Shown piece by piece: positions 15,402 through 34,744 of a stretch of DNA of 36,919 nucleotides; the stretch's first letter is position 1, and each line of letters begins with the position of its first letter. The DNA is taken from contig CACYMJ010000021.1 in assembly GCA_902775485.1 (NCBI GenBank), forward strand, positions 1 to 36,919, given 5' to 3'. The position numbers were made by a program, and so were the translations under genes. Under the pieces are notes generated by a model. It was given only the letters and a program-made list of their open reading frames with translations. It did no database searches and was not told the DNA's origin. Origin of the DNA: an uncultured Lachnospiraceae bacterium. GTDB lineage: Bacteria > Bacillota > Clostridia > Lachnospirales > Lachnospiraceae.

Positions 15402-18161
15402 GTGGGAAATTATATGAATGTTGTGGCAAATAACATCCCCGGGATGTTTACGTCACGGCAGATCGGTATAACAAATAAAAGTAAAGCAAAGTCGACAGAG
15501 AAGCTCTCTTCCGGCTATAAGATAAACCGTGCGGCAGATGATGCCGCCGGACTTACCATATCTGAAAATATGCGCAGGATGATAAGGGGTCTTACGCAGG
15601 CATCTCTTAACACCGAAGACGGTGTTTCATTATGTCAGGTAGCTGACGGATATTTAAACGAAGTCCATGATATGCTTCACAGAATAACAGAGCTGGCGGT
15701 AAAGGGTGCAAACGGAACGCTCACCGACGACGACAGGCAGGCCATAGATGAGGAGGTCGGCCAGCTTAAAAGTGAGATGAAAAGGATCTTTAATGTTGCA
15801 AACTTTAACGAGATTCCTCTGTTTCATGTTCCATATACTCCTGAGATTGAAACCATTCCGACCGATATGGAGGTTTTCCACGTGGGATCGGGTAATGTGG
15901 GCGGTCTGGAATTTAACAATGTCAGATATAACATATCGGAGCTGCAGGCTCTCGGAATCCCCATAGATGATAACGGTGTCGCAACGGATGATCTTGAACA
16001 GGGTGATAATGTTTTTACGCTCTGGGACGGAGAGGAAGTAGATCTTTCGATAAAGAAGGGTCAGACAATAGATCAGGCTGTCCGTAATTACAAATGGACG
16101 GCTGAAGATGACGGTATCCACATAAACGGAAAACTGTCAGCCGAATGGGGAGAGGTAAGATATACGGGAAACGGGCTTGTTGATAAGAAACTTTCCGAGA
16201 CCGATATGCTCTCAAGCGGGGTGTTTGATACAGGAACGTACAGATTCACACATCACGGTATGACGATAAGTTTTGAGGTTGATGAAGAAGGCGCCCTCGA
16301 GGATCTTATGAGCGGGATCAACGGTGATGAGGCTACCCGGCCGGCCACATGGGACGTAAGCGTAGGCGGATCTGTTTCAAAAGAGGCCGTGAAAATGGAT
16401 TCCGGAATTCAAAGCATAAATGTTACAAATGCAAATGCTGATTTTATAAATCACAGATTTGCGGTTGTTGCAGATGCTAACGGCATAGCCATAAAGGACA
16501 GGACCGCAAATTATACCGGCCCATATAAGGCGTGGGCAGATTTTTACGATAGATATGCTGCGAAAAAAGATGAAAACGGAAATGATGTTGCGACTAACAA
16601 CGGATATCCGATAATAAACTGGGGAACGGCCAATGACGCAAACGGTGAGTCGGAGATAACATTTGATGACAGTGCCAGGTATACTTACACCGCAACCGAC
16701 AGTAATGTTCCGAAGTTTTCCTTTGCATTTAAACTGGCTGAGTCGGCAAGCCTTGATGAAGTTGCCGGTGCAATGAGCCGCGATTTTTCCACATCGAGGG
16801 TATATGCAAGAGGAGATCTCAGGGCTTCCGGTACCGGTACGATGGGATCATTACGGGTGATAGATAGCGAAGTATCGCTTATCAAGGATTTGGATTCAGT
16901 AAACCCTACGGGCAATTTTGAACTTCAGCGTGCATATGGCAGGGATTTTGATGATCCCACCCAAAATCTTACGGCGGATATAACCGTGACCAGAACGGTG
17001 GTAGGGCGAAATCTTGCGGATGACGTGCCTGACTCTTCCGGAGGATACAGCGTAGACGGGCATACTGTCAGTAATCCGGGATACTACAAAAATGATCTGA
17101 AAACCACATCATCTCCGTATAGTGAATCAACTGTGTATTACAAGGTGGGGGATGATTACTATGAGGTCAGGAGTTATTATGAAGACAGGGATTACGACAG
17201 AGCGTATGCCAAAACAGACAGATGGTCCCAGGCGGTTTCATATACGTTTGACGGCAGCCTTAACGGAACTTCAATGGATCAGGTAAGTGCATCTCAGACA
17301 GAAAATTTTGAAAGGACACTCAACCTCACAAGAACGGAGACAGAGACCTGGTATATAAGAGAAAACGCCCGGAGAGTATCGGAAAGTGATCTGACAGACG
17401 AACAAAAGGCTTCTGCTGTTACCAGGGATAATCCATATGTTCCTGAGATGACAGCCGGCAGTGAACTTAGGAATACAAGTATCGGTACTGACTCTGCCGT
17501 TACTGTTGGAACAGCGGAGGTTAAGTCGGTAAACAACAGCAATTATGATGTGGATTTTAATTCATCAAAAGGTAAAGCCTTTGCTTTTAACTACATGGTG
17601 AATGCATCCCAGGCGAATGAGCTTGCAAAGAATACGGGTATTTCGCAAAATGTCGGAACGATCACGTTTTCTCCGAGCGGATATGCATATCGCAGTTTCA
17701 TTTTGAATACATATGGTAATGTAAACGAAGCGGAGTTTTCAAACATCAAATTGAACGTTCCGAAGAAGCAGTTGGATATTCAGTCCAGTGCGGATGCAGT
17801 TCACTATATAACAATGGAATGGAGCCCGCTAAACCTTACGATAATAGGGCTTGCCGGTGCAAATACGAAAACACAGGGGTCATCGCTTGCTTCTATCGGT
17901 ATGGTTGAAAATGCCCTTGGAGTGATCTCCGAGACGCGGTCACTTTTCGGCGCATACCAGAACAGGTTTGAGCATACTATCAGGAACCTTGATAATGTCG
18001 TGGAAAACACGCAGGCGGCTGAATCAAGGATAAGAGATACAGATATGGCAAAAGAGATGGTCAAATATGCCAAGGAAAATATCCTCGAGCAGGCGGGCAC
18101 TGCCATGCTCGTCCAGTCAAACCAGTCCAAGAACTGGATAATGAATCTTCTTAACAGTTAA
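15402..18161 (+). CDS. Very large flagellin (hag/fliC family)
   Basis: The filament-forming termini are clear. The N-terminal D0/D1 region (1-150) has KAKSTEKLSSGYKINRAADD and AAGLTISENMRRMIRGL, and the C-terminal D1/D0 region (about 825-919) has NVVENTQAAESRIRDTDMAKE and NILEQAGTAMLVQSNQS. Between them lies a surface-exposed central region of about 650 residues, giving 919 residues against 270-500 in common flagellins. The central part is rich in Tyr, Asp, Ser and Thr, with no HExxH motif, so it is not a flagellinolysin. A cysteine (C78) inside D1 is unusual. GTG 15402 is preferred to ATG 15414 because AGGTGA (15392-15397) is well spaced from it. No flagellar assembly gene is nearby. The 3' end overlaps the convergent kinase gene. 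Confidence 0.93.
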   Translation: MGNYMNVVANNIPGMFTSRQIGITNKSKAKSTEKLSSGYKINRAADDAAGLTISENMRRMIRGLTQASLNTEDGVSLCQVADGYLNEVHDMLHRITELAVKGANGTLTDDDRQAIDEEVGQLKSEMKRIFNVANFNEIPLFHVPYTPEIETIPTDMEVFHVGSGNVGGLEFNNVRYNISELQALGIPIDDNGVATDDLEQGDNVFTLWDGEEVDLSIKKGQTIDQAVRNYKWTAEDDGIHINGKLSAEWGEVRYTGNGLVDKKLSETDMLSSGVFDTGTYRFTHHGMTISFEVDEEGALEDLMSGINGDEATRPATWDVSVGGSVSKEAVKMDSGIQSINVTNANADFINHRFAVVADANGIAIKDRTANYTGPYKAWADFYDRYAAKKDENGNDVATNNGYPIINWGTANDANGESEITFDDSARYTYTATDSNVPKFSFAFKLAESASLDEVAGAMSRDFSTSRVYARGDLRASGTGTMGSLRVIDSEVSLIKDLDSVNPTGNFELQRAYGRDFDDPTQNLTADITVTRTVVGRNLADDVPDSSGGYSVDGHTVSNPGYYKNDLKTTSSPYSESTVYYKVGDDYYEVRSYYEDRDYDRAYAKTDRWSQAVSYTFDGSLNGTSMDQVSASQTENFERTLNLTRTETETWYIRENARRVSESDLTDEQKASAVTRDNPYVPEMTAGSELRNTSIGTDSAVTVGTAEVKSVNNSNYDVDFNSSKGKAFAFNYMVNASQANELAKNTGISQNVGTITFSPSGYAYRSFILNTYGNVNEAEFSNIKLNVPKKQLDIQSSADAVHYITMEWSPLNLTIIGLAGANTKTQGSSLASIGMVENALGVISETRSLFGAYQNRFEHTIRNLDNVVENTQAAESRIRDTDMAKEMVKYAKENILEQAGTAMLVQSNQSKNWIMNLLNS

Positions 18162-20646: not shown

Positions 20647-20912
20647 TGGTAGCGGCAAAACACTGTAAAAAATGTCTTCTTGCCGAACTGGATAACGAAA
20701 AGCTTCTTGCGGATGTCAGACAGGCGGTAGATCGTCTGTCCGAAAGAGACAGGGTATCGGAGGATATATATTCAAAGCGCCTTGCCGTTTGTAAGGAATG
20801 CGACTATCTGAGCGAAGGAACATGTAATGCCTGCGGCTGTTATGTGGAACTTCGCGCAGCGATGAAAATGGGCAAATGCCCGTATTCAAAGTGGAAGGGT
20901 CTGAAAGAATAG
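20646..20912 (+). CDS. Small Cys-rich zinc-binding protein (DUF6171-like)
   Basis: The 88-residue protein has CKKC near the N-terminus (C8, C11 is CKKCLL), CKECDYL, CNACGC in the centre and KCPYSKW near the end. This pattern suggests two zinc sites. It resembles the DUF6171 proteins common in Lachnospiraceae; I give this family name from memory. The start codon overlaps the arabinofuranosidase stop, and the next gene starts 3 bp after its own stop, so it is translated as part of one operon. No function is known, and nothing here ties it to sugar metabolism other than position. Confidence 0.8.
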   Translation: MVAAKHCKKCLLAELDNEKLLADVRQAVDRLSERDRVSEDIYSKRLAVCKECDYLSEGTCNACGCYVELRAAMKMGKCPYSKWKGLKE

Positions 20913-23018: not shown

Positions 23019-25019
23019 ATGATCAGATATCTGAAAAACATTTGGAAGGAACTCGGACGAAGTATCTTTACCGGCGAAAGATACAAAGCCAACCTTCGCG
23101 GGCTTGCGTTCGGCAGCGTACTCATTGTGGTTCTGAGTATAGTCACTGGATATATGAACCTGAACAAAGGTTACCTGCGTGAAGCATCCACGGCTGTTCT
23201 CGGAGTAATATCGGGGTTGTTTGCTTTGTTTTTCACCGCTGTCAAAAAAGATCGTCGCCTGACCATTATTACGGCGACGTTATATTTCATGATCAACTAT
23301 ACATATGACACGTTTTTTTCCACTAACGGATTCGCCATACTCTGGACACTGCTCCTTCCGCTTGCGCTCGCGTATTTCGGGAGTGTCAAATCAGGAGTTT
23401 CTCTCTCCGCCTATTTTGTAGTCCTGTATTTCGTCGTATTCTACACCCCTCTAAGACATCTTGTCGAAAACAATTATTCGGAGACGATGCTTCAAAGATT
23501 CCCGGTCCTGTATTTTGCACAGGCACTGGTCACGACCTATATCATGGTGCAGTACCACCTGAACACGCTGCATCAGATGGACTACTCAGAGCAACTCCTT
23601 GCCGCAAAGGAAGCAGCGGATCAGGGCAATCTCGCAAAGAGCAATTTCCTTGCCAACATGTCGCATGAGATCCGTACCCCTATGAATGCGATCATAGGAA
23701 TGGATGAGATGATCCTTCGCGAGACGGATGAGCCCAAAATACGCAAGTATGCCGGTGATATAAAGACCGCAAGCCGGACTCTTCTTTCCATCATTAATGA
23801 TATTCTTGACCTTTCCAAGATTGAATCGGGGAAAATGGAGCTTGTTCCGATCGAATACGATTTTGCCTCTGTACTTAATGACATTGTAAACATGACAATG
23901 AAAAAGGCTGAGGAAAAAGGTCTTTTATACAACCTTGCAGTAGATCCCGATATCCCGTCCGTCCTAAGCGGCGATGAAATACGTATCCGTCAGATCATTC
24001 TGAACCTTACAAACAATGCCATCAAATACACGCAGCAGGGCAGCATCGGTCTTCATTTCAGTTTTGATCGCGAGACAGATCGTTTGAGCTTTAGCGTCGC
24101 GGACACGGGAATGGGTATCAAAGAGGAGGATATGGATAAGCTTTTTTCCTCTTTCCAGCGCCTTGATGAAACAAGAAACCGTAAGATCGAAGGTACCGGG
24201 CTGGGACTTAATATTACAAAACAGCTGGTCGAACTTATGGGTGGCGGTATAAGCGTAAAAAGCGAGTATGGAAAGGGATCCACTTTTACCGTATCGGTCG
24301 ATCAGGAGGTAATCGATCCAACACCTATAGGAGATTACACGAAACTCCTTGAAAAGGCACAGGTTACCGCAGAGGAATATGTTCCTGTCGTTATTGCTCC
24401 CAAGGCAAATGTCCTCATCGTTGACGATAACGAAATGAATCTTGAAGTCATCACGGACCTTATGAGCGAAACGAAGATAAAGGTGACTACCGCTTTGTCC
24501 GGACAGGAATGCCTCGATATGTTGAAAATGCGCAAATTTGATCTTATCCTTCTTGATCAGATGATGCCGAAAATGTCGGGAACACAAACACTTAATATCA
24601 TACTCGATGAGAAACTTGCAGAGGGCACGCCCGTGGTAGCGCTTACAGCAGACGCCATAGTCGGCGCCAAAGACTCATATATCAAAGAAGGGTTTACGGA
24701 TTATCTGTCAAAACCTGTCATGTTCCCGGAACTTGAAGGCATTCTGGCAAAATACCTTGACAGCAGTCTGATCGTCTCAAAAGAACAGTTCGAAGCCTCA
24801 GAAGGAAAAAGCCCTGACACCGATGATAAAAAGACGATCCTTATGATAAGCGATTCCGCCGAAAACCTGAAAGGGTTCAAGGAAATACTTAATGACCGGT
24901 ATAAAGGTGTATTTGTAAAAGACGAGGAAAGCGCACGCAAGTATCTTGAAAAACACACGGCTGTATACGTTTTAAAAGATGATAAGGATAACTGCCAGAC
25001 TTTGATCGTCAGTACATAA
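23019..25019 (+). CDS. Hybrid histidine kinase 1, integral-membrane sensor
   Basis: The 666-residue protein has about six membrane segments (between residues 29 and 178) with little outside loop, so it probably senses the membrane or an internal signal. The kinase core has the phosphoacceptor H216 in NMSHEIRTP, the N-box (NLTNNAIKY), G1 DTGMGIK (362-368) and G2 EGTGLGL. A receiver domain (about 463-580) has DD469-470, phosphoacceptor D513 and K565. A tail of about 80 residues after the receiver (TILMISDSAENLKGF... [12 protein letters not shown]) looks like the first half of a second receiver. There is no Hpt domain; a stand-alone one is encoded downstream. It is a paralogue of the kinases at 28157 and 30683. 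Confidence 0.95.
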   Translation: MIRYLKNIWKELGRSIFTGERYKANLRGLAFGSVLIVVLSIVTGYMNLNKGYLREASTAVLGVISGLFALFFTAVKKDRRLTIITATLYFMINYTYDTFFSTNGFAILWTLLLPLALAYFGSVKSGVSLSAYFVVLYFVVFYTPLRHLVENNYSETMLQRFPVLYFAQALVTTYIMVQYHLNTLHQMDYSEQLLAAKEAADQGNLAKSNFLANMSHEIRTPMNAIIGMDEMILRETDEPKIRKYAGDIKTASRTLLSIINDILDLSKIESGKMELVPIEYDFASVLNDIVNMTMKKAEEKGLLYNLAVDPDIPSVLSGDEIRIRQIILNLTNNAIKYTQQGSIGLHFSFDRETDRLSFSVADTGMGIKEEDMDKLFSSFQRLDETRNRKIEGTGLGLNITKQLVELMGGGISVKSEYGKGSTFTVSVDQEVIDPTPIGDYTKLLEKAQVTAEEYVPVVIAPKANVLIVDDNEMNLEVITDLMSETKIKVTTALSGQECLDMLKMRKFDLILLDQMMPKMSGTQTLNIILDEKLAEGTPVVALTADAIVGAKDSYIKEGFTDYLSKPVMFPELEGILAKYLDSSLIVSKEQFEASEGKSPDTDDKKTILMISDSAENLKGFKEILNDRYKGVFVKDEESARKYLEKHTAVYVLKDDKDNCQTLIVST

Positions 25020-25051: not shown

Positions 25052-25119
25052 ACCGAATGCCCCCAATAATCAACCGAATGTCGTAAACAGGCGTATTCCG
25101 TGCTCCTGTAATATATAAT
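25052..25119 (+). promoter_or_regulatory. LytTR-type operator and promoter of the small-protein pair
   Basis: ACCGAATGC (25052-25060) and ACCGAATGT (25073-25081) are 9-bp direct repeats separated by 12 bp, a 21-bp period. A perfect TATAAT follows at 25114-25119, 41 bp after the start of the second repeat, with no recognisable -35 box (GCGTAT at the place expected). This is the architecture of activator-dependent LytTR promoters such as AgrA targets. A LytTR gene lies 700 bp downstream with the same operator in front. Confidence 0.7.
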
Positions 25120-25163
25120 ATCCATGTATCTTCATTTTTTGAAAAATACAAGGAGGTATTTAT

Positions 25164-25364
25164 ATGAAGGATATTAAGACAGGAACGATCTGTGCCATTA
25201 TCAGCATGACATCGGTGGTGATCATGCTGCTATGGGGATTTTTGGCCAATGATTTTGCTCACAGCTGGCTGGCTGTGATGGTTGGCGGAGTTGCATCATG
25301 CGCATTCGCGATGATCCGCAGGGATCTCGATAAGGCCAAAAAGGATAAGGAGGGATCGGAATGA
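25164..25364 (+). CDS. Small membrane protein of unknown function
   Basis: The 66-residue protein has two hydrophobic segments (about 7-27 and 34-52), separated by NDFAHSW, and a highly charged end (RRDLDKAKKDKEGSE). A strong Shine-Dalgarno sequence (AAGGAGG) precedes the ATG. Its stop overlaps the next start in ATGA, so it is coupled to the zinc-ribbon gene. It is transcribed from the LytTR-type promoter at 25052-25119. I recognise no family; it may anchor or export its partner, but nothing proves this. Confidence 0.8.
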   Translation: MKDIKTGTICAIISMTSVVIMLLWGFLANDFAHSWLAVMVGGVASCAFAMIRRDLDKAKKDKEGSE

Positions 25365-25633
25365 GCGGTTTAGATGATAAAAAGATCGCGGATGATATTC
25401 TCGGTAAGATATCAGGAGGTCTGGGCGGAGAATATGAAGCAACATGTCCGAAATGCGGAAAGCCCATGCGTAAGGAAGCCAATCCGTACGGAACTGACAG
25501 CTGGAAGTGCGATGGATGTAAAGAGACCCAGTTTCTCTCTGACGCGGAATATATATTGATGTTAAAAACTGCGGAGCAGCTTGGCCAGACACAGGGCCTC
25601 GTATATCCGGTATGGTGGGATAAGGTAAAATAA
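25361..25633 (+). CDS. Small zinc-ribbon protein with a double-glycine-like N-terminus
   Basis: The 90-residue protein has a zinc ribbon, CPKCGKPM (C29, C32) and CDGCK (C50, C53). Before it is a 25-residue acidic and helical segment ending in ILGKISGGLGG, which resembles a double-glycine leader. It starts in the ATGA overlap with the small membrane protein. The pair is the only gene content behind one of the two clear LytTR-type operators, which makes it the best regulon target in the window. Whether the GG motif is cut is unknown. No C39 peptidase transporter is in the window. Confidence 0.8.
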   Translation: MSGLDDKKIADDILGKISGGLGGEYEATCPKCGKPMRKEANPYGTDSWKCDGCKETQFLSDAEYILMLKTAEQLGQTQGLVYPVWWDKVK

Positions 25634-25662
25634 TATATTCCGTAAAGGAACAGCGGTAATGA

Positions 25663-25696
25663 TGTGGAGAAGGATATCAAAGTATCCTTCTCCACA
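25663..25696 (+). terminator. Perfect 14-bp hairpin after the small-protein pair
   Basis: TGTGGAGAAGGATA (25663-25676) and TATCCTTCTCCACA (25683-25696) form a perfect 14-bp stem with loop TCAAAG. It lies 29 bp after the zinc-ribbon gene and 18 bp before the next LytTR-type repeat. The following bases are ATTACGTTTAGG, not a T run, so termination may be inefficient, or the stem may protect the mRNA 3' end. Confidence 0.5.
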
Positions 25697-25714
25697 ATTA
25701 CGTTTAGGAGAAAT

Positions 25715-25782
25715 ACCGAATAAACACGAAAATCCACCGAATAAACACGTCGCAGACGGAGCCTTAATTGATATCATATAAT
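25715..25782 (+). promoter_or_regulatory. LytTR-type operator and promoter of the signalling operon
   Basis: Two identical 14-bp copies of ACCGAATAAACACG begin at 25715 and 25736, exactly 21 bp apart. TATAAT lies at 25777-25782, 41 bp from the start of the second repeat, the same geometry as at 25052-25119. No -35 box is visible (GACGGA). It precedes the LytTR gene itself, so autoregulation is likely. All genes to 34387 follow with gaps of 34 bp or less and appear to be one operon from this promoter. Confidence 0.72.
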
Positions 25783-25820: not shown

Positions 25821-26300
25821 ATGAAAGATATGGTAGAGATCGAGGTAGTCCTTGATGAACGATATGCAGATCCGCTTGTTACGATCAAAACCAGGTCAAA
25901 CACACAGCAGGTCGAGAATATCATTTGTGCGATCGAGGATGCATCCCACAGCGATTTTCCGCAGATAGCGGCTGTAAAGGATGATGCGGTTGTATTTGTC
26001 TCTCAGAGGGACATCGTAAGAGTACATACGGAAGGGCGTAAGATCGTAATTCAGACGGAGAGAGAAGCATATACGGTAAAAAGAACCCTGGCCGGCCTGG
26101 AGGATGTTCTTAATGCTTCAAGATTCCTTCGAATATCCCAGTCGGAGATCATCAATCTGTACAAGGTTAAGAGCTTTGATTTTAACCTTGCGGGAACGAT
26201 CGGTGTTGAATTCGACTGCGGTATCAAATCGTGGGTATCACGCAGCCGCGTCAAGCAGATCAAGGCGCTGCTTAAGCAAAACAGCATAAAGGGGGTTTAG
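25821..26300 (+). CDS. LytTR-domain DNA-binding regulator without receiver
   Basis: The 159-residue protein has a short N-terminal region (about 1-50) that is not a receiver, and a LytTR domain (about 55-157). The motifs are VSQRDIVRVHTEGRKIVI, LNASRFLRISQSEIINL and the end VSRSRVKQIKALL. LytTR domains bind direct repeats in two successive major grooves, and the repeats at 25052 and 25715 fit this. It is followed 3 bp later by a DUF3021 membrane protein, a known pairing. In this class the membrane partner often restrains the regulator. It lacks a phosphorylatable Asp, so the neighbouring phosphorelay cannot act on it directly. Confidence 0.93.
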   Translation: MKDMVEIEVVLDERYADPLVTIKTRSNTQQVENIICAIEDASHSDFPQIAAVKDDAVVFVSQRDIVRVHTEGRKIVIQTEREAYTVKRTLAGLEDVLNASRFLRISQSEIINLYKVKSFDFNLAGTIGVEFDCGIKSWVSRSRVKQIKALLKQNSIKGV

Positions 26301-26303
26301 AAG

Positions 26304-26726
26304 ATGGAATTAAAAAGCAGATTCTTAATAAACTCACTTATAGGCATCATAGCCGGAATGACTGTCGGAATGGTGATGTGGATGTTAAATTCTCCGGACG
26401 ATCTCGCAAACAGGAGCTTCGCCCTTCATATCATCATGTCGGGGATACATGGACTGATACCTTGCGGTGCGATGACCGTATATGAGATCGAAAGCTGGGG
26501 CCTGACAAAGTCAACTGTTGTACATGCCACGATCACTCTTGCCACGATACTTGCGATCGAGCTTCCGATGAAATGGTTTACGTGGAGTGCGGATTTTGCG
26601 ATAGCAATGCTGATCTACGTTGTCATATACGTGTTCATATGGCTCTTCAATTATCTCTACTGGAAACGTACAGTCAATGAGATGAACGATCAGCTCGAGC
26701 TCATCCTTAAACAGCAGAAAGTGTAA
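26304..26726 (+). CDS. DUF3021 family membrane protein, partner of the LytTR regulator
   Basis: The 140-residue protein has four hydrophobic segments (about 8-28, 40-60, 71-90 and 96-117) and a charged cytoplasmic end (ELILKQQKV). Length and layout fit DUF3021, which is encoded directly after LytTR genes in many Firmicutes. Such pairs work as LytTR regulatory systems in which the membrane protein inhibits the regulator until an unknown signal arrives. It starts 3 bp after the LytTR stop codon and ends 12 bp before the double-receiver gene. Confidence 0.88.
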   Translation: MELKSRFLINSLIGIIAGMTVGMVMWMLNSPDDLANRSFALHIIMSGIHGLIPCGAMTVYEIESWGLTKSTVVHATITLATILAIELPMKWFTWSADFAIAMLIYVVIYVFIWLFNYLYWKRTVNEMNDQLELILKQQKV

Positions 26727-26738
26727 AAAGGGTCGGAT

Positions 26739-27542
26739 ATGCAGTTAAAAGTACTGGTTACGGGAAAAAACCGTAAGGTTGCAAGTGATATATGTGAACA
26801 TCTTGAGACGGACAGAGGATACGTAACGATCAAATGCGATCCGAACAAAACAGCACTGTTCGATCTTATGATATCGGAGCTTCCGAAGGTTGTTATCATA
26901 TGCCTCGGAGATGAGTCGTCGGTCACGGTACAGGCATACAATGTGATGAGATCGGCACTCTCTCAGGGAAACATCACGACGATAGTTGTTACTGACAGTG
27001 ATGACGAGAAGATGTTCATGAAATATACCGAACTTGAAAGGGTGTTCTTCCTGTCAAGGCCGGTATCATTGTTCGCACTTTATGAAAAACTGTCTGAAAT
27101 AGAAAAAACCATTGAAGATACAAAAGACAACAATCTGTCGGCCTTCAGGGAGTATGTCAATGACGGCGGAGGAAGTCGGAGAAAACAGATACTGGTCGTT
27201 GATGATGATACGGAGCAGCTTGTACATATCAAAGAGCAGCTTGAGGAGTTCTACGATGTCACGTGCGTCAAGTCCGGAGTTGCCGCATTCAAATATCTTG
27301 CCAAGAAAACGCCGGACATTATACTGCTCGATTATCTGATGCCGATGATGGATGGTCCCGAGGTCCTTCGTAACATTCATGATACATCGGGCTGGGAGGA
27401 TATACCGGTCGTTTTTCTTACCGGCATGACCGAGAAGAATAAGGTATTAAAGACACTTGCCGAGCTTAAACCGCAGGGTTATGTGGTAAAACCCGCGAAA
27501 AAATCCGAGCTTGTGGCCAAGATCATAGACATATTGGGGTGA
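26739..27542 (+). CDS. Response regulator with a pseudo-receiver and a receiver, no output domain
   Basis: The 267-residue protein has two receiver-like domains. The first (about 1-125) keeps the fold pattern (LKVLVTGKN, VVIICLG, IVVTDSDD, LSRPVS) but lacks the acidic pair and replaces the conserved Lys with R107, so it is probably not phosphorylated. The second (about 149-267) is complete: DDD155-157, phosphoacceptor D198 in ILLDYLMP, T228 and K251 (VVKPAKK). No DNA-binding or enzymatic domain follows. The gene is 7 bp before the Hpt gene, its likely phosphate partner. It may act by protein contacts or as a phosphate sink. Confidence 0.9.
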   Translation: MQLKVLVTGKNRKVASDICEHLETDRGYVTIKCDPNKTALFDLMISELPKVVIICLGDESSVTVQAYNVMRSALSQGNITTIVVTDSDDEKMFMKYTELERVFFLSRPVSLFALYEKLSEIEKTIEDTKDNNLSAFREYVNDGGGSRRKQILVVDDDTEQLVHIKEQLEEFYDVTCVKSGVAAFKYLAKKTPDIILLDYLMPMMDGPEVLRNIHDTSGWEDIPVVFLTGMTEKNKVLKTLAELKPQGYVVKPAKKSELVAKIIDILG

Positions 27543-27549
27543 AAGAGAA

Positions 27550-28146
27550 ATGGATATTACATGGCTTAGTGAAACCGGACTTGATACGGAAACGGGGATC
27601 TCATATACGGGCGGACAGGACAAGTACATTTCTGCCCTTCAGCGGTTCTATAAGAATTATGAAAAGAACAGGGCAAAGGTGTGTGAGTATCTTCAGGCCA
27701 AAGATTATGAGAACTATATGATCACGGTTCATGCGCTTAAGAGTAACGCCAAGATGATAGGAGCGCGGGATCTGTCGACGCTGTTTGAGACTCTTGAGAC
27801 GGCTGCAAGAAATAACGAGATCGGACTGATCGAACCCCAGAATGAAGTTGCATTAAAAGAGTATGACGAGCTCATTCAAAAACTTGCCCCGATAGGATCT
27901 ATGGGAGATGTTCGTGCTGCCGACGAGATATCGGCTGAAGTTGCGAGGGAAACGGTTGATAGACTTCTGGAGGCGCTCGATGATTTTGACGATGAAGAGG
28001 CAAAGAGGCTGACAAAGGTACTGTCCGGTTATCCTTTCAGATTGACTCAGACAGAAAAACTTAAGGAGGCAGCTGCTTTTATTGAGGATTTTATGTATGA
28101 CGAGGCTGCCGGGATCATCAGACAGATCGCTCCGGCGATAGAATAG
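27550..28146 (+). CDS. Stand-alone histidine phosphotransfer (Hpt) protein
   Basis: The 198-residue protein has an Hpt helical bundle in residues 1-115, with the phosphorylatable H61 in TVHALKSNAKMIGA. The C-terminal 80 residues are acidic and helical (LLEALDDFDDEEAKRL, FIEDFMYDEAAGII). Their repeated helix pattern is also found at the end of other clostridial hybrid kinases. Hpt proteins carry phosphoryl groups from a hybrid kinase receiver to a final receiver. None of the three hybrid kinases in the window has its own Hpt domain, so this protein is their natural shuttle. The gene follows the double-receiver gene by 7 bp. Confidence 0.92.
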   Translation: MDITWLSETGLDTETGISYTGGQDKYISALQRFYKNYEKNRAKVCEYLQAKDYENYMITVHALKSNAKMIGARDLSTLFETLETAARNNEIGLIEPQNEVALKEYDELIQKLAPIGSMGDVRAADEISAEVARETVDRLLEALDDFDDEEAKRLTKVLSGYPFRLTQTEKLKEAAAFIEDFMYDEAAGIIRQIAPAIE

Positions 28147-28156
28147 GCTGCAGATA

Positions 28157-30649
28157 TTGAAGAAGATACAAACGATCCTTGCGATCATTCTTATAACAGT
28201 ATTCGGATATATATTCGCCGGTGAGATATTCATGCCGGCAAATACACCGGTAAACGGAGATATCTGTGACACTCTTCCGGGAGATAAATGGGAGAAGGTC
28301 TGTTCTGATGGGACCAAAGAGCCGTTTGCCGTTCCCGGGAATACTGATTCCGACATTGTTCTTGAAACAACTCTCCCGGAGCATTTTAACAAAGACTACA
28401 ACGTATTGTGCTTTCGCGGAATGGATATGGAGGTCTGGGTTGACGGAGAAGAAAGAGCGGTATACAAAACCGAGGACTACCGCCTTCTTGGAGACCGTTC
28501 CGCCGAATGCTATGTTATGGCTTCCGTATATCCCGAGGATGCCGGAAAAGTGCTCCGCGTACACTATGAGTATAATTCCGGCATGGTATATGAAACATAT
28601 ATCGGTACCAGACTGGGAATACTTGCTCACCTGTTCAGAACGTACGGTCTGGAGCTGTTTGTCGGGATGGCTCTCATGCTTCTGGGTGTCATATGCCTGA
28701 TCGCAGCCGTAACGTACAAGCTCATTCACAAAAAATACCTGGAGATGGAACACCTGTCCATCGGTGTTATAATAGGCGCCTGCTGGGTGCTGTCCAACTC
28801 GATATTCAGACAGTTTTATACGAGGAATATTTCGGTCATGTCGGACATACCTTTTTTGATGGTAATGGTCATGCCGCTTCCGTTTTTTGTATTCCTTGAT
28901 TCCCTTCAAAAAGGGCGATACGCAAAGCTGCTTGGCTGTGCGGGCATCATCGCGATAGCAAATTTTGTTGTATGTGCTGCACTCTTCGTTTCGGGAGCGG
29001 TACCTCTCGTTAAAAGCTTTAATGGTTCCGCCATATGTGCCCTTATCGGGATCATCATCATGTTTGCGACGCTCGTACTGGATCTTAGGAAACATCTGTT
29101 GTATTCGTACAGGTTTGTGGCGGCCGGATTTGTTCTCCTTGCAATATCAGCGGTCATTCAGATATTTGCATATGCATTTGCCCATAACGGAGTGTTTTCC
29201 GGATTGTTCATGGCATTTGGTCTGTTCGCTTTTATGATCTGTTCCATAATCCATACGATAAAACAGCTTATCGGGATAAGGCTGGAGGCAAATGAACTGC
29301 AGCATATAAATAAGGCCAAGGATGATTTCCTGGCAAATATGTCCCATGAGATCAGGACACCTCTTAACGGGATTCTCGGTATGGATGAGATGATCATCAG
29401 GGATACGAAGGAGAGCAGGATAAGGGATTATGCTTTTGAGATCAAGAGCGCGGGCAATACACTGCTTTCGATAATCAACGATATTCTTGATCTTTCCAAG
29501 ATAGAATCCGGAAATTTCGAGATAGTTCCGGGGGAGTATGATATAGCCTCGGTTCTTAACGATGTTCTGAATATGACAATGCACAGGGCAAAGAAGAAAG
29601 GCCTTGCATTTAATTACAATGTGTCCGAATCGATCCCTTCAGTGCTTGAGGGAGATGAGATCAGGATACGGCAGATAATGCTGAACATCATCAACAATGC
29701 CATCAAGTATACGCAGGAAGGCAGTGTTTCGGTTGAAATATCTTCGGAATCCGTAATGATGGGCAATTATATCAATCTGATCATCCGGGTTACCGATACC
29801 GGAATGGGTATAAAGGAGGAGGACAAGGACAAGCTTTTCAAGAGCTTTCAACGGCTTGATGAGAGGAAAAACCACAGCATAGAAGGAACGGGTCTGGGAC
29901 TTCATATCACGAACAGCCTGCTTCAGATGATGGAAGGGAAGATATCGTTTGAAAGTGAGTACGGCAGGGGAAGTGTATTTACCGTCACGGTACCCCAGAA
30001 GGTAGTCAAGGCTTCTCCGATAGGAGTATTTTCCAAGGCAGTCAGGGAATATCTCGGAAACATGGAAACGGATGAGGTGGGATTGTACGCTCCGTCAGCC
30101 CGACTGCTGGTTGTCGATGATAATGAAATGAACCTTGATGTAATGGAAGGGCTTCTTAGGGATACAAAGATCCCCACTGATTATGTGGAGTCGGGAGCAG
30201 CTTGTATAGAGAAGGTTCAGAACACAAAATATGATTGCATCCTTCTTGACCAGATGATGCCGGGCATGAGCGGGGAAGAGGCGTTAAATGAGATGGTAAG
30301 GCTTGATATACTGAAGGGAACTCCGGTCATCGCGCTTACGGCGGATGCGATCATCGGTGCCAAGGAAAGCTATCTGGCAAAAGGATTCACGGATTATATA
30401 TCCAAACCTGTTAAATACGAAGTTCTTGAGGCGGTCCTCAAAGAGTATATTCCGAAGGAAAAACAGCTGTCGCCAAGCGGCGCGGATGAGCTTCCCGTAA
30501 TGCTGATATGGGGCGATGATTCGGAAAAACTGAAGCAGGAGAAGATAAGACTTGACGGCATATATAAATGTGTATGTGTGGTTGGGGAAGCCGCAAAGGA
30601 TAAATATCTTAAGACTCATGAGACCTCCGGCATCATGAACATTGTGTAG
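28157..30649 (+). CDS. Hybrid histidine kinase 2, 7TMR-DISM-like sensor
   Basis: The 830-residue protein starts at TTG 28157, with a weak ribosome-binding site. It has an N-terminal membrane segment (5-22), an extracytoplasmic region (about 23-162) and about seven membrane segments (165-366), the 7TMR-DISM layout used for ligand sensing. The kinase core follows, with H397 in [12 protein letters not shown], the N-box NIINNAIKY, G1 DTGMGIK and G2 EGTGLGL. The receiver (about 648-765) has DD654-655, phosphoacceptor D698 and K750. A tail of about 60 residues (VMLIWGDDSEKLKQEKIRLD) is a shortened relative of that in the other two kinases. It lies 10 bp after the Hpt gene. Confidence 0.94.
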   Translation: MKKIQTILAIILITVFGYIFAGEIFMPANTPVNGDICDTLPGDKWEKVCSDGTKEPFAVPGNTDSDIVLETTLPEHFNKDYNVLCFRGMDMEVWVDGEERAVYKTEDYRLLGDRSAECYVMASVYPEDAGKVLRVHYEYNSGMVYETYIGTRLGILAHLFRTYGLELFVGMALMLLGVICLIAAVTYKLIHKKYLEMEHLSIGVIIGACWVLSNSIFRQFYTRNISVMSDIPFLMVMVMPLPFFVFLDSLQKGRYAKLLGCAGIIAIANFVVCAALFVSGAVPLVKSFNGSAICALIGIIIMFATLVLDLRKHLLYSYRFVAAGFVLLAISAVIQIFAYAFAHNGVFSGLFMAFGLFAFMICSIIHTIKQLIGIRLEANELQHINKAKDDFLANMSHEIRTPLNGILGMDEMIIRDTKESRIRDYAFEIKSAGNTLLSIINDILDLSKIESGNFEIVPGEYDIASVLNDVLNMTMHRAKKKGLAFNYNVSESIPSVLEGDEIRIRQIMLNIINNAIKYTQEGSVSVEISSESVMMGNYINLIIRVTDTGMGIKEEDKDKLFKSFQRLDERKNHSIEGTGLGLHITNSLLQMMEGKISFESEYGRGSVFTVTVPQKVVKASPIGVFSKAVREYLGNMETDEVGLYAPSARLLVVDDNEMNLDVMEGLLRDTKIPTDYVESGAACIEKVQNTKYDCILLDQMMPGMSGEEALNEMVRLDILKGTPVIALTADAIIGAKESYLAKGFTDYISKPVKYEVLEAVLKEYIPKEKQLSPSGADELPVMLIWGDDSEKLKQEKIRLDGIYKCVCVVGEAAKDKYLKTHETSGIMNIV

Positions 30650-30682: not shown

Positions 30683-33070
30683 ATGGAGAATATTGTCAAT
30701 AACAGGATAAAAGAACGTATAAAGATAAGGGAGCGCAGAAAGACGGGGATGATCATACCCATGATCTTTCTGTTCATATTCATGACTGTCATGGTGATCT
30801 ACACGACAAGGCTTATGTATAACGTTGCGGTTTCAAACTCGAATGCCGTAATGGAAGACAGAATCCTGACGGTCTCCGCGATGATCAACAATCATTTAAA
30901 CACAGCGGAAAACGTATTGCACGTTGCCGGTGACAGCGTACACCACATGCTCATAAGCGGAACTACCTCGGCAAGGATACATGAATTCCTTGTGGATGAA
31001 ACGAATAATGTTACTGAGCAGTTCGATGAGAATTATACGGGGATCTATGGCCATATAATGGGTAAATATATTGACGGTCTTAACTGGGTACCTCCGGAAG
31101 GATATGATCCAAAGAGCCGTGACTGGTTCATTGAGGCAATGTCAGCCGATGGAAGTGTTGTATTTACAATGCCATATATCGATGCACAGACAGGCAATCT
31201 TATAGTATCGGTATGCAGAATGCTGCCGGACAGACAAAGCGTTATCGCACTTGATGTCCAGCTTAAGGGTATACAGTCGATGATGAGTGAACTTACCCTT
31301 AACGGTAAGGGATATGGTTTTGTGATCAGTTCTGACGGTATGTTTATAGCTCACCGGGATGAATCCAAAAAGGGCACCAATATATGTGATACGGAAGGTG
31401 GCAGCAAGTTTCTGGATGCAATTAAGGAGGCTGATTCGGGAAGCTTTCCATATACATGGGAAGGAGAACCGAGCACGGTCTATGTCAACAGGATTGCAAA
31501 TGACTGGAATACGGTACTTGTCGTGAGTGATCATGATCTGTATTCGGAAGTAAGAAGCCAGCGCGTGATCATCATAGTGATCTGCGCCTTGATATTCCTG
31601 ATGATCACCACTATCTATTATGTCGGACACCGGAATGAGCAGAAATACAACAAAGAGATGGAGGAGATGAAGCTCGAGGAGCAGAAGACCGCATACGAAC
31701 GTAAGGTGCTTGAGCTTGAGAAGGATGCTGCAAATGCATCCAACAAGGCTAAGAGTGATTTTCTGGCAAACATGTCGCATGAGATCAGAACTCCAATGAA
31801 CGCGATCATCGGTATGGATGAGATGATCCTCCGCGAGAAGGTATCCGATAAGGTGCGTAAATATGCGCTTGATATACAAAGTGCAGGCAAGACGCTGCTG
31901 TCGATAATCAATGACATACTCGACTTCTCCAAGATCGAATCGGGCAAGATGGAACTTATCCCTGTTGAATACGGATTTGCATCGGTGATGAACGATGTCG
32001 TGAACATGACAATGAAGAAAGCAACGGATAAGGGCCTTACATATGATCTTAAAGTTTCCAGGGACGTCCCTTCCGTTCTTCGCGGGGACGAGATAAGGGT
32101 AAGACAGGTCATGTTAAACCTTATCAACAACGCGATCAAATATACTCATGAAGGCAGGGTTTCCATTGATGTTTCATATGACGATGCCACCGGCATGCTG
32201 TGGGTGATAGTGTCAGATACCGGAATAGGAATAAAGAATGAAGACCTCGGAAAGCTGTTCGGGTCTTTCCAGAGACTTGATGAGGATAAGAACAGGAACA
32301 TTGAAGGAACCGGACTTGGCCTTAACATCACGATGCGCCTTGTGAAAATGATGGAAGGTACGATCGGTGTCAACAGCAAATACGGCGAGGGAACAACGTT
32401 TACGGTCCGGATGAAGCAGGAAGCCATAGACAGGACTCCCGTCGGAGATTTTGCGGATAATCTCTCGAAAATGCAGTATACCGGCAAAGAATATAAGCCG
32501 GCGCTTGTTGCACCGAAAGCGAAGATCCTTGTCGTTGATGACAATGATATGAACCTTGAGGTGTTTGAAGCATTGCTTGAAGACACAAAGATAGGGGTCA
32601 CAACAGCCGAATCAGGTAAGGAGTGTATAGAGATACTGAAGGAGCGCTCATTTGATCTTATATTCCTTGATCAGATGATGCCCGGGATGTCAGGAGTACA
32701 GACGCTTGAGGCAATGAAGAAGGATGATCTTGCAAAAAACACGGCGGTCATAGCTCTTACAGCGGACGCGATCGTCGGGGCGAGAGAGAACTATATCAAA
32801 GAAGGATTTTCGGATTATCTTAGCAAACCTGTTATTTATGAAGCTCTTGAAGAGATGCTCATCAAATATCTGGACCCGTCTCTTATACAAAATGAGGCCG
32901 AACCGGTCAGGGAAGAAGCTGATGATGGTGATAAACCCGTTGTCATAGCAGTTTCTTCATCGACTGAAAAGTTACGTGCCCTTAAGGAACTGCTCGGTGG
33001 CGGATATAAGGGTGTATTTGTCAAAGATATGGACAGTGCGGCGAAGTACGTTGAGAAGAACAGAACATAA
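30683..33070 (+). CDS. Hybrid histidine kinase 3, dCache-like extracellular sensor
   Basis: The 795-residue protein has a membrane segment at 23-45 and an extracellular dCache-like region (about 46-293). That region includes [29 protein letters not shown] and [20 protein letters not shown], as in amine- or amino-acid-sensing domains. A second membrane segment (295-314) and a coiled linker (about 318-355) follow. The core has H366 in NMSHEIRTP, the N-box NLINNAIKY, and G1 and G2 boxes. The receiver has DD619-620, D663 and K715. A half-receiver-like tail ([37 protein letters not shown]) ends the protein. The kinase core closely resembles kinase 1, suggesting duplication with sensor exchange. 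Confidence 0.95.
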
Positions 33071-33094: not shown

Positions 33095-34387
33095 ATGAAG
33101 AAGAGACTATGTATTATCATGGCAGCTATGTTTGCTTTTTCCATGACGGCCTGCACAAGTTCAGGTGACAGCGCAGCCACAGTTGATACACAGGAAGAAG
33201 CACAGGTATCCGAGGAAAAACCGGAAGCAGAGCCTGCAGCCGATGAGACACCGGCAGGGGATGCAGATGATTCTGAAGATTTTCGCATCGGTATCGTTAC
33301 CGGCTCATTTTCGCAATCTGAGGATGACAGACGAGGTGCCGAAGCATTCCAGAAAAAATACGGCCCGGACAAGGTAACTCTGGCGATTTATCCGGATAAT
33401 TTCACAGACGAGGCGGAGACCACGATAGGCGTTATAACCGGGCTTGCGGACGATCCCAAAATGAAAGCCATCATTGTCAATCAGGCTGTTGAAGGAACAG
33501 ATGAGGCATTTCGAAGGATAAAGGAAAAGAGGCCGGATATCTTATGTATTGCGGGAGAGACGTTCGATGTTTTTGAAGAGATGGGCGATCTGGCTGATCT
33601 GGTGGTCAATAACGACTTTGTCTCACGAGGATATCTGATGATAAGGACCGCGCATGAGCTCGGCTGCGATACTTTTGTCCATATCTCGTTCCCGAGACAT
33701 CTGTCATATGAAACATATGCAAGACGCGTTAATATAATGAAGGCTGCATGTGAAGAATTCGGAATGACGTTTGCCATGGAAGAAGCACCCGATCCCACTA
33801 CCGAGGTCGGAGTTCCCGGAGCACAGAAATACATAACAGAGCATGTACCCGAGTGGGTTGAAAAGTACGGAAAAAGCTCAGCGTATTTTTGTACGAACGA
33901 TGCTCATACCGAGCCGCTTATCAAGGGACTTATCGAAAACGGAGGATACTTTATCGAGGCAGACCTTCCGTCTCCGCTCATGGGATATCCGGGAGCACTC
34001 GATCTTGATCTTACAGGTGCGGACGGAGATTTCGGCAAGATAACATCTGAAGTTGAGGAAGCGATCGTTGCAGCAGGCGGGGCAGGCAGATTCGGTACAT
34101 GGACGTCCTCATACGGATTTGCGAATTCTGCGGGTCTTGCGGAACACGCACGAAATGTTCTGCTGGGAAGATCGGAGCTTACCGACCTTAATGCCATCAG
34201 GGAGGCCTATAAGATCTATACACCCGAGACCGAATGGAACGGTGCAAAATATACAAATGCCGAAACCGGAAAAGCATATGACAATATCTTCCTGGTTTAT
34301 CAGGATACATACATTTTCGGGAATCCGGGGCGCTATATGGGAATCACAAAGATCAGTGTTCCGGACGAATACTATACGATAAAATAG
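33095..34387 (+). CDS. DUF3798 family substrate-binding lipoprotein
   Basis: The 430-residue protein has a lipoprotein signal peptide with C20 in FSMTAC. It is followed by an acidic linker (about 21-60, rich in Glu, Ala, Pro) and a periplasmic-binding-protein-like domain. That domain starts FRIGIVTGSFSQSEDDRRGAE and continues with YFCTNDAHTEPLIKGLIE, as in DUF3798 proteins. It would be anchored outside the membrane. It starts 24 bp after the dCache-like kinase with a good Shine-Dalgarno (AAGGAG) and is the last gene of the operon. No ABC permease is nearby, so it may hand a ligand to a sensor kinase instead of a transporter (inference). The ligand is unknown. Confidence 0.88.
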   Translation: MKKRLCIIMAAMFAFSMTACTSSGDSAATVDTQEEAQVSEEKPEAEPAADETPAGDADDSEDFRIGIVTGSFSQSEDDRRGAEAFQKKYGPDKVTLAIYPDNFTDEAETTIGVITGLADDPKMKAIIVNQAVEGTDEAFRRIKEKRPDILCIAGETFDVFEEMGDLADLVVNNDFVSRGYLMIRTAHELGCDTFVHISFPRHLSYETYARRVNIMKAACEEFGMTFAMEEAPDPTTEVGVPGAQKYITEHVPEWVEKYGKSSAYFCTNDAHTEPLIKGLIENGGYFIEADLPSPLMGYPGALDLDLTGADGDFGKITSEVEEAIVAAGGAGRFGTWTSSYGFANSAGLAEHARNVLLGRSELTDLNAIREAYKIYTPETEWNGAKYTNAETGKAYDNIFLVYQDTYIFGNPGRYMGITKISVPDEYYTIK

Positions 34388-34434
34388 AAGTGATCTTCGC
34401 TATACCGGGTTGGTATTTGCAGGAGACAAAAATT

Positions 34435-34481
34435 AACAGACCGGATCTCATGCAGGCATGAATGATCCGGTCTGTTATTTT
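34435..34481. terminator. Bidirectional terminator between convergent genes
   Basis: AACAGACCGGATC and GATCCGGTCTGTT form a perfect 13-bp stem (34435-34447 with 34464-34476), with an inner TCATG/CATGA pairing. It is followed by ATTTT on the plus strand and, read from the other strand, by AATTTTTG. It ends the signalling operon and the minus-strand small gene. Confidence 0.85.
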
Positions 34482-34489
34482 GCAAAGCC

Positions 34490-34744
34490 TTACGGATTGG
34501 CTTTTTTACTGCGGATATCCGATACCGTATAGATATCGACCTCCATTGCGTTATATTCATTGGGTCCGAGAGATCTTGCGAATGCACACGCTTCATCACG
34601 TGACCAAAACATACCGAGGACATTTCCGGAACCGTTCTCTATGACCTCCCACGGACATGCGGGATTGAATTCAGGAAGTCCCTGGGCATATACTACAAGA
34701 CCACCGTTAACATTATTCAGTTCGCTGTCATTCATTTTCTTCAT
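34490..34744 (-). CDS. Small protein with double-glycine leader, bacteriocin- or signal-peptide-like
   Basis: The 84-residue protein starts MKKMNDSELNNVNGG, a leader of the type cut after GG by C39 peptidase transporters (pattern ELxxVxGG). The remaining 69 residues (LVVYAQGLPEFNPACPWEVI, then MFWSRDEACAFARSLG) have two cysteines and resemble no known bacteriocin. The frame is open to 34795, but ATG 34744 is chosen because GGAGGT lies 8 bp before it and the leader begins there. No transporter or immunity gene is adjacent. It could also be a non-secreted small protein. Confidence 0.7.
   Translation of the reverse strand: MKKMNDSELNNVNGGLVVYAQGLPEFNPACPWEVIENGSGNVLGMFWSRDEACAFARSLGPNEYNAMEVDIYTVSDIRSKKANP

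Follow-up and report, generated by a model that had tools for sequence, protein, structure and literature searches.

A predicted self-activating LRS with paired ACCGAAT operators, linked to double-glycine leader proteins in Lachnospiraceae

Promoters regulated by AgrA or ComE carry direct repeats upstream of the −10 box. According to PMC6193735, a LytTR Regulatory System (LRS) is recognised by a soluble LytTR regulator that lacks a receiver, by a membrane protein with DUF3021 or DUF2154 encoded just after it, and by 9-bp direct repeats that are spaced 11–13 bp apart and lie about 10 bp upstream of the −35 box of the operon promoter. Rows of its Table 3, for example those for Bacillus cereus and Clostridium botulinum, describe 9-bp repeats, a 12-bp spacer, 10 bp, the −35 box, 17 bp and the −10 box, which places the second repeat 42 bp from the −10 box (9 + 10 + 6 + 17). 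As of 2018, according to the same paper, no LRS had been characterised outside Streptococcus mutans. In this species the membrane protein inhibits the regulator and its loss triggers positive feedback: when it was deleted, all five LRS operons were induced. Bacteriocin genes are among the targets of two of these systems, HdrRM and BrsRM. No kinase domain is present in the LRS membrane proteins published so far (PMC6193735).

The window analysed here is a stretch of 36,919 nucleotides from an uncultured Lachnospiraceae bacterium. It carries two promoters, P1 and P2, each preceded by a pair of ACCGAAT direct repeats, the operators O1 and O2 (Table 1). As in HdrRM, BrsRM and SMU_433/434, as far as the source consulted covers them, a soluble receiver-less LytTR protein is followed by a DUF3021 membrane protein; the gene for the latter lies directly downstream, after a gap of 3 nt, and two hydrophobic segments of its product pass a simple cut-off. 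The geometry of 9-bp direct repeats, a 12-bp spacer and about 10 bp to the −35 position is likewise shared with the part of the LRS literature available. At O2 the lengths are 9 bp for the repeat, 12 bp for the spacer and, if a 17-bp spacing is assumed, 9 bp up to where the −35 box would lie; no such box is recognisable. The differences are several. Many published LRS repeats in the same source are ACCnCTTA-like, whereas the half-site here is ACCGAATAnrCA; the −35 box is essentially absent; the operon adds REC, Hpt, two hybrid kinases and a DUF3798 protein; and the regulon found in relatives holds many double-glycine (GG) leader proteins together with NHLM exporters.

Table 1. Features of the operator-promoter region and of the two transcription units (positions in the window)
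Feature	Position	Strand	Description
Operator 1 (O1)	25052..25081	+	Direct repeats ACCGAATGC (25052-25060) and ACCGAATGT (25073-25081), 21-bp period
P1 −10 box	25114..25119	+	TATAAT, 41 bp from second-repeat start; without −35
Small membrane protein	25164..25364	+	66 aa, 2 hydrophobic segments
GG-leader protein	25361..25633	+	90 aa; 20-aa leader ...KKIADDILGKISGG; CxxC...CxxC cargo, zinc-ribbon-like (Cys4)
Hairpin	25663..25696	+	15 bp; probable terminator/separator between P1 unit and P2; T-run weak
Operator 2 (O2)	25715..25744	+	ACCGAATAA twice, 21-bp period
P2 −10 box	25777..25782	+	TATAAT, 41 bp from second-repeat start
LytTR regulator	25821..26300	+	Stand-alone, 159 aa; PF04397 E 2.9e-19
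DUF3021 membrane protein	26304..26726	+	Putative LRS inhibitor; PF11457 E 6.1e-24
REC protein	26739..27542	+	Receiver domain residues 151-262; PF00072 E 2e-23
Hpt phosphotransfer protein	27550..28146	+	PF01627 E 2.3e-7
Multi-TM hybrid histidine kinase	28157..30649	+	HisKA, HATPase_c, REC; 7 hydrophobic segments
dCache hybrid histidine kinase	30683..33070	+	dCache_1, HisKA, HATPase_c, REC
DUF3798 protein	33095..34387	+	Putative binding lipoprotein (signal by eye); PF12683 E 1.3e-114
Hairpin	34427..34483	+	Strong, T-rich 3′ side; probable P2-operon terminator

We consider it likely, at a probability of roughly 85%, that O1 and O2 are the operators of the adjacent LytTR protein, which together with the DUF3021 protein would form an LRS activating both units. 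The grounds lie in sequence comparison: the sites and genes themselves, the conservation of the sites and of their geometry, the co-distribution of sites and regulator, and the reuse of the sites over the same set of genes. A preliminary description of this DNA, made from its letters alone, had already noted a LytTR gene directly behind the second site and had proposed an operator of the encoded regulator, with autoregulation and a small-protein target. Every link of that proposal that can be followed in sequence holds, and the LytTR assignment is borne out by its Pfam match and its AgrA/ComE-like modelled fold; the description had overlooked the DUF3021 partner, and with it the LRS identity, and likewise that the operon holds phosphorelay genes and that the small protein has a GG leader.

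No receiver domain, no other Pfam family and no hydrophobic segment were found in the 159-aa LytTR protein, which has a conserved N-terminal part of about 55 aa outside the LytTR domain. The fold was modelled because a single-sequence search of the PDB gave no match and a profile search returned 3d6w alone below 1e-3. The model has a mean pLDDT of 76.8, with 61–68 over the first 50 residues, and was the only one of five to exceed 54. It matches 3d6w (TM 0.91 by target length), AgrA chains (0.82–0.84; structures with and without DNA) and ComE. The PF04397 match together with the modelled LytTR beta fold places the protein in the LytTR family. It would thus share the fold of AgrA and ComE, at whose promoters direct repeats also precede the −10 box (PMC5295010, available part); it differs from them in carrying no receiver fused to the LytTR domain, and the repeat sequence is another one. 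No second PF04397 protein was found in the genome from which the window comes (G000, 84% complete).

When the window was searched with no motif supplied, ACCGAAT was the single 7-mer forming perfect pairs of the same spacing (21 bp) at two places, and both pairs had a common TATAAT offset of 41. Dinucleotide shuffles (n = 100) held a mean of 0.01 such paired words and never a common TATAAT offset (0/100). The period and the 41-bp distance to a perfect TATAAT reported in the preliminary description are confirmed for O1 and O2. A looser count in the window, with up to 3 mismatches, was not telling (4 matches against 1.2 expected, as many in 4 of 100 shuffles); its two exact matches are O1 and O2. 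At O2 the longer word ACCGAATAAACACG is doubled as well, starting at 25715 and 25736 and reaching 25749. The repeat had been described as a 9-mer. Its period stands, but the half-site conserved in 76 distinct operators is actually longer: the consensus is ACCGAATAnrCA, and an A-tract separates the two halves. The ninth position of the 9-mer is unconserved, at 0.17 bit, whereas position 11 is a C in all 76.

In these 76 operators the second repeat lies 42 bp (42 sites), 41 bp (30), 40 bp (3) or 43 bp (1) from the −10 box, admitted sites having been restricted to 40–43 bp. When the offset was left unrestricted in 61 repeat pairs, exact TATAAT boxes were found at 41 (16 pairs) and 42 (17 pairs), with five more at other offsets from 7 to 81, against 0.03 expected per offset. 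The loci were picked by few mismatches plus, by eye, resemblance of the spacer. A histogram of their 21-bp spacing is circular, since they were chosen with that spacing, and was not used; the TATAAT offset is not circular.

Downstream of the DUF3021 gene, the genes for REC, Hpt, the two kinases and the DUF3798 protein follow one another with gaps of 7–33 nt, up to a hairpin with a predicted fold of −30.3 kcal/mol (34425-34490, z −7.2). No DNA-binding domain was found in the REC protein, the Hpt protein or either hybrid kinase. In the source genome and its relatives, REC belongs to the LytTR gene string in 13 genomes (G000, G006, G011, G014, G015, G016, G018, G021, G026, G027, G028, G032, G033) and stands apart from it in 11 others (G005, G007, G008, G009, G010, G012, G020, G022, G025, G031, G035). 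Each of these 11 detached REC genes is preceded by an operator, with 3 mismatches in G022 and by profile alone in G010. An Hpt gene follows in 10 of the 11; in the remaining genome, G007, the Hpt genes were found in an operator-led exporter operon. This retention of an operator before REC after the operon has broken up is the most telling observation on the regulon.

The same arrangement could be read differently, with the LytTR protein as the output of the co-encoded phosphorelay, REC or Hpt contacting it and DUF3021 being a side partner. REC, Hpt and two hybrid kinases that share an operon and have no detected DNA-binding domain of their own, a REC gene that keeps the operator where it is apart from LytTR, and the conserved N-terminal part of the LytTR protein would all fit such wiring. 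The LytTR protein, however, lacks a receiver domain, and the LRS membrane proteins described in the available part of PMC6193735 manage without a kinase domain. We regard this reading as unlikely, if worth keeping in view.

For an LRS, a possible course of events can be outlined. At rest the DUF3021 membrane protein would keep LytTR inactive, by analogy with the S. mutans LRS. Freed LytTR would bind the direct repeats, which are offset from each other by two turns of the helix and end about 10 bp before the position of the missing −35 box. On the same analogy the bound protein would recruit RNA polymerase to the TATAAT of P1 and P2, acting by activation and not repression. Activation of P2 would amplify the regulator's own operon, including REC, Hpt, the two hybrid kinases and the DUF3798 protein, in a positive feedback, while activation of P1 would switch on the small membrane protein and the GG-leader small protein. 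The latter would probably be cleaved and exported by a C39-peptidase ABC exporter of NHLM type. The phosphorelay is predicted to be co-induced with the LRS, and may either set its state or respond to the exported product. We thus infer a self-activating LRS that controls the export of GG-leader proteins.

The promoters themselves bear on the sign of this control. At spacings of 16–18 bp no recognisable −35 box was found at P1 (best 1/6) or P2 (best 3/6), and a promoter scan called neither TATAAT. The lack of a −35 box claimed in the preliminary description thus holds at these spacings, with the addition that the scan did call a conventional promoter-like match overlapping P2 (25768-25797, TTGATA-18-TATATT, 10/12). 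LytTR could alternatively repress P1 and P2 in a negative autoregulation, and a LytTR-family repressor, PlnD, does exist (PMC2714321, available part). Operators placed upstream at a fixed distance from promoters missing their −35 box are, however, as expected of activated promoters, and removal of the membrane protein induced the LRS operons of S. mutans as cited above (PMC6193735, available part), which makes repression quite improbable.

The preliminary description had staked its reading on the repeats being conserved upstream of orthologous LytTR genes, and they are. Of the 24 named loci, 22 have within 500 bp upstream an operator that departs from the pattern at no more than 1 of its 20 positions; the 24 loci encode LytTR relatives, are all titled Lachnospiraceae (seven titles give rumen samples and one goat jejunum) and include isolate XBB2008, of the same family and another genus, which has the same operon and operator. 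Within the genus, an operator with at most 2 mismatches was found upstream in 20 of 24 other ortholog loci (57–96% identity), a set that overlaps the named one. None of 2000 shuffled upstream stretches reached even 3 mismatches; the shuffles drew on both the named and the genus stretches, some of the latter taken from the wrong side of the gene. The genus loci without a good operator directly upstream of LytTR are those of G007, where LytTR lies inside the operator-led exporter operon, G008, G025 and G016 (degenerate). In G027 (locus L011) there are two sites upstream of LytTR, the far one at −546 and the near one at 20722. Two more distant LytTR paralogs, with 35 and 42% identity, were examined and gave no operator upstream. 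Around another 42%-identical paralog, in G009 (contig 36, 39038-39690), weak operator-like sites were seen, one of them just upstream of the gene at 39038-39499 (E 6.8e-4). The motif may therefore be common to paralogs, and this one may reflect cross-talk or a second switch that has diverged.

Sites and regulator are also distributed together. Among the 37 genomes of the genus, profile matches at E ≤ 0.01 occur in 24/24 genomes bearing an ortholog versus 4/13 without (Fisher p 5.7e-6), in line with the related-genome search proposed in the preliminary description; the 24/24 is partly circular, as the operator-promoter profile was built from sites of the same genomes (59 sites, from the genus genomes scanned plus two others; 137 candidates scored per genome). 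Fixed patterns applied before the profile, with at most 2 mismatches, gave 22/24 versus 1/13 (p 5.9e-7), G022 being included on a site with a poor −10 box. As a control, the two fixed patterns with at most 3 mismatches matched 119 times in true orientation and 20 times when reversed, which puts the background at roughly a sixth of the matches at this tolerance. Predicted sites number 1–11 per ortholog-bearing genus genome. In a family-wide sample (397 genomes, two of them of the genus), an exact operator with an exact TATAAT was found in the source genome and two others. In each of these two the operator has LytTR, REC and Hpt genes next to or following it; this search was exact only, and operator variants escape it.

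Four genomes (G003, G013, G019 and G023, two of them 95–98% complete) keep sites while no ortholog was detected, as would be expected if some other DNA-binding protein read ACCGAAT and the LytTR gene were merely one of its targets. Of these, G003 and G023 are drafts, 82–85% complete, and the best-scoring site of G023 sits where a contig stops; in G013 a LytTR of 35% identity is present; and the site of G019 is marginal (E 0.007). With a sole PF04397 protein found in the source genome, an LRS-type repeat geometry and a strong co-distribution, another reader of the sites is very improbable. That the pairs arose by chance, or are left over from a mobile repeat, is refuted by the genus-wide conservation and the fixed promoter offset, the shuffles ruling out the former and nothing being found in support of the latter.

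The large predicted regulon is found in relatives of the source genome; in the source genome itself, the motif points to no promoters beyond the two already known. There, the operator-promoter profile R1 gave O1 an E-value of 3.1e-5 and O2 one of 6.1e-11, and no further operator at E < 0.01 (next E 0.34; 150 of 724 first-look candidates scored), and fixed patterns with at most 3 mismatches in 20 matched O1 and O2 alone. Counterparts of O1 are present in G011, G023 and G027.

To describe the regulon, 82 sites with at most 2 mismatches in 20, from 26 genomes (two outside the genus), were classed by the genes that follow. The first gene encodes LytTR at 21 sites, a GG-leader protein at 19 (16 general, 3 Cys4), REC at 10, a small membrane protein at 6, STAS at 4, DUF3798 at 2, DUF3021 at 2, and an NHLM secretion protein and an ABC ATPase at one each; 14 were followed by other genes, one of which (G015) is LytTR on closer look, and 2 by a contig end. 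The resulting 66/82 is a description and not an enrichment test, since the stretches were mostly fetched for carrying sites. The general GG-leader label comes from a loose pattern, and a check by eye covered the 16 first genes that received it. Leaders of operator-linked GG proteins measure about 20–40 aa, and two of the general type that were tested matched no Pfam family. Very similar leaders (such as KNMELNDEMMAKAAGG) were seen fused to several different cargo types of about 60–85 aa.

Both products of the P1 unit have relatives in this company. The genes of the 66-aa membrane protein and the 90-aa GG-leader protein overlap, and neither protein has a curated Pfam or NCBIfam family over cut-off. 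In the alignment A2 the 90-aa protein has a double-glycine leader with the hydrophobic/acidic pattern, D11, G19 and G20 being invariant (12/12), and its homologs sit behind operators in relatives. Relatives of the membrane protein recur next to GG-leader proteins and operators; it is possibly an immunity or accessory partner of the GG-leader protein. The hairpin that follows the unit has a predicted fold of −27 kcal/mol (25655-25712, z −6.8).

As in the NHLM/NHLP export systems (TIGR03794, TIGR03796, TIGR03797), a C39-peptidase exporter is found, and in relatives it stands behind the operator: such NHLM genes were seen in G007, G008, G009 and G020, the exporter of G007 scoring 915 bits with TIGR03796 (NHLM_ABC1, cut-off 853). 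NHLP/Nif11 leaders are 66–85 aa long according to the available part of PMC4289311, whereas the precursors here have GG leaders of about 20–40 aa. The source genome has its own C39-peptidase exporter on contig 9 (NHLM_ABC1 927 bits, over cut-off; L121, 5869-10556), a locus that includes a shortened HlyD-like gene. No ACCGAAT operator was found upstream of it, so co-regulated export is seen in relatives only.

A more complete circuit can be proposed tentatively, in which the LRS induces its own membrane inhibitor, the hybrid phosphorelay and the binding protein, and in which its output, GG-leader proteins exported by the C39/NHLM route, is sensed by the same kinases, forming a cell-density or kin-recognition loop in Lachnospiraceae. 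Relatives reuse one site for many such genes, so that the whole looks like a known type of switch, altered. The LRS kind is already known; the novelty lies in the half-site, in an operon that includes phosphorelay genes, and in a GG-leader/NHLM regulon in Lachnospiraceae. In a literature search covering titles and the starts of abstracts, we found no description from Lachnospiraceae of an LRS that is joined to a phosphorelay or governs GG-leader proteins, and no paper combining NHLP and LytTR. The locus would provide an LRS outside Streptococcus, with a predicted recognition element and genus-wide predicted sites, and a concrete predicted output, namely GG-leader proteins and in some relatives also their exporter. 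The input signal of the LRS, its wiring with the phosphorelay and the role of the operator-linked GG-leader proteins thereby become testable questions.

Some further features of the window were recorded. A second GG-leader small protein is encoded on the opposite strand directly behind the P2 operon (34490-34741, −); it scores 15.4 bits with the bacteriocin signal TIGR01847, just below the cut-off of 15.7, and its gene has no ACCGAAT operator in front. A further hybrid histidine kinase lies just upstream of O1 (23019-25019), again with no ACCGAAT operator found in front. An ORF of 919 aa (15402-18161) has, by eye, flagellin-like ends and a very long middle, and is possibly a giant flagellin.

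In relatives, an ACCGGAT variant of the operator was seen at L146-L150 (G028) and L155 (G008), mostly before GG-leader proteins; it may point to a second regulator, or the half-site may have drifted. Operators also precede very large ORFs at L076 (1157 aa), L090 (1155 aa) and L106 (835 aa), which may encode surface or secreted proteins. Finally, operators on opposite strands are arranged back to back at L070 (5949-6075), L095 (8108-8260) and L072 (3511-3658), flanked on one side or both by regulon genes.
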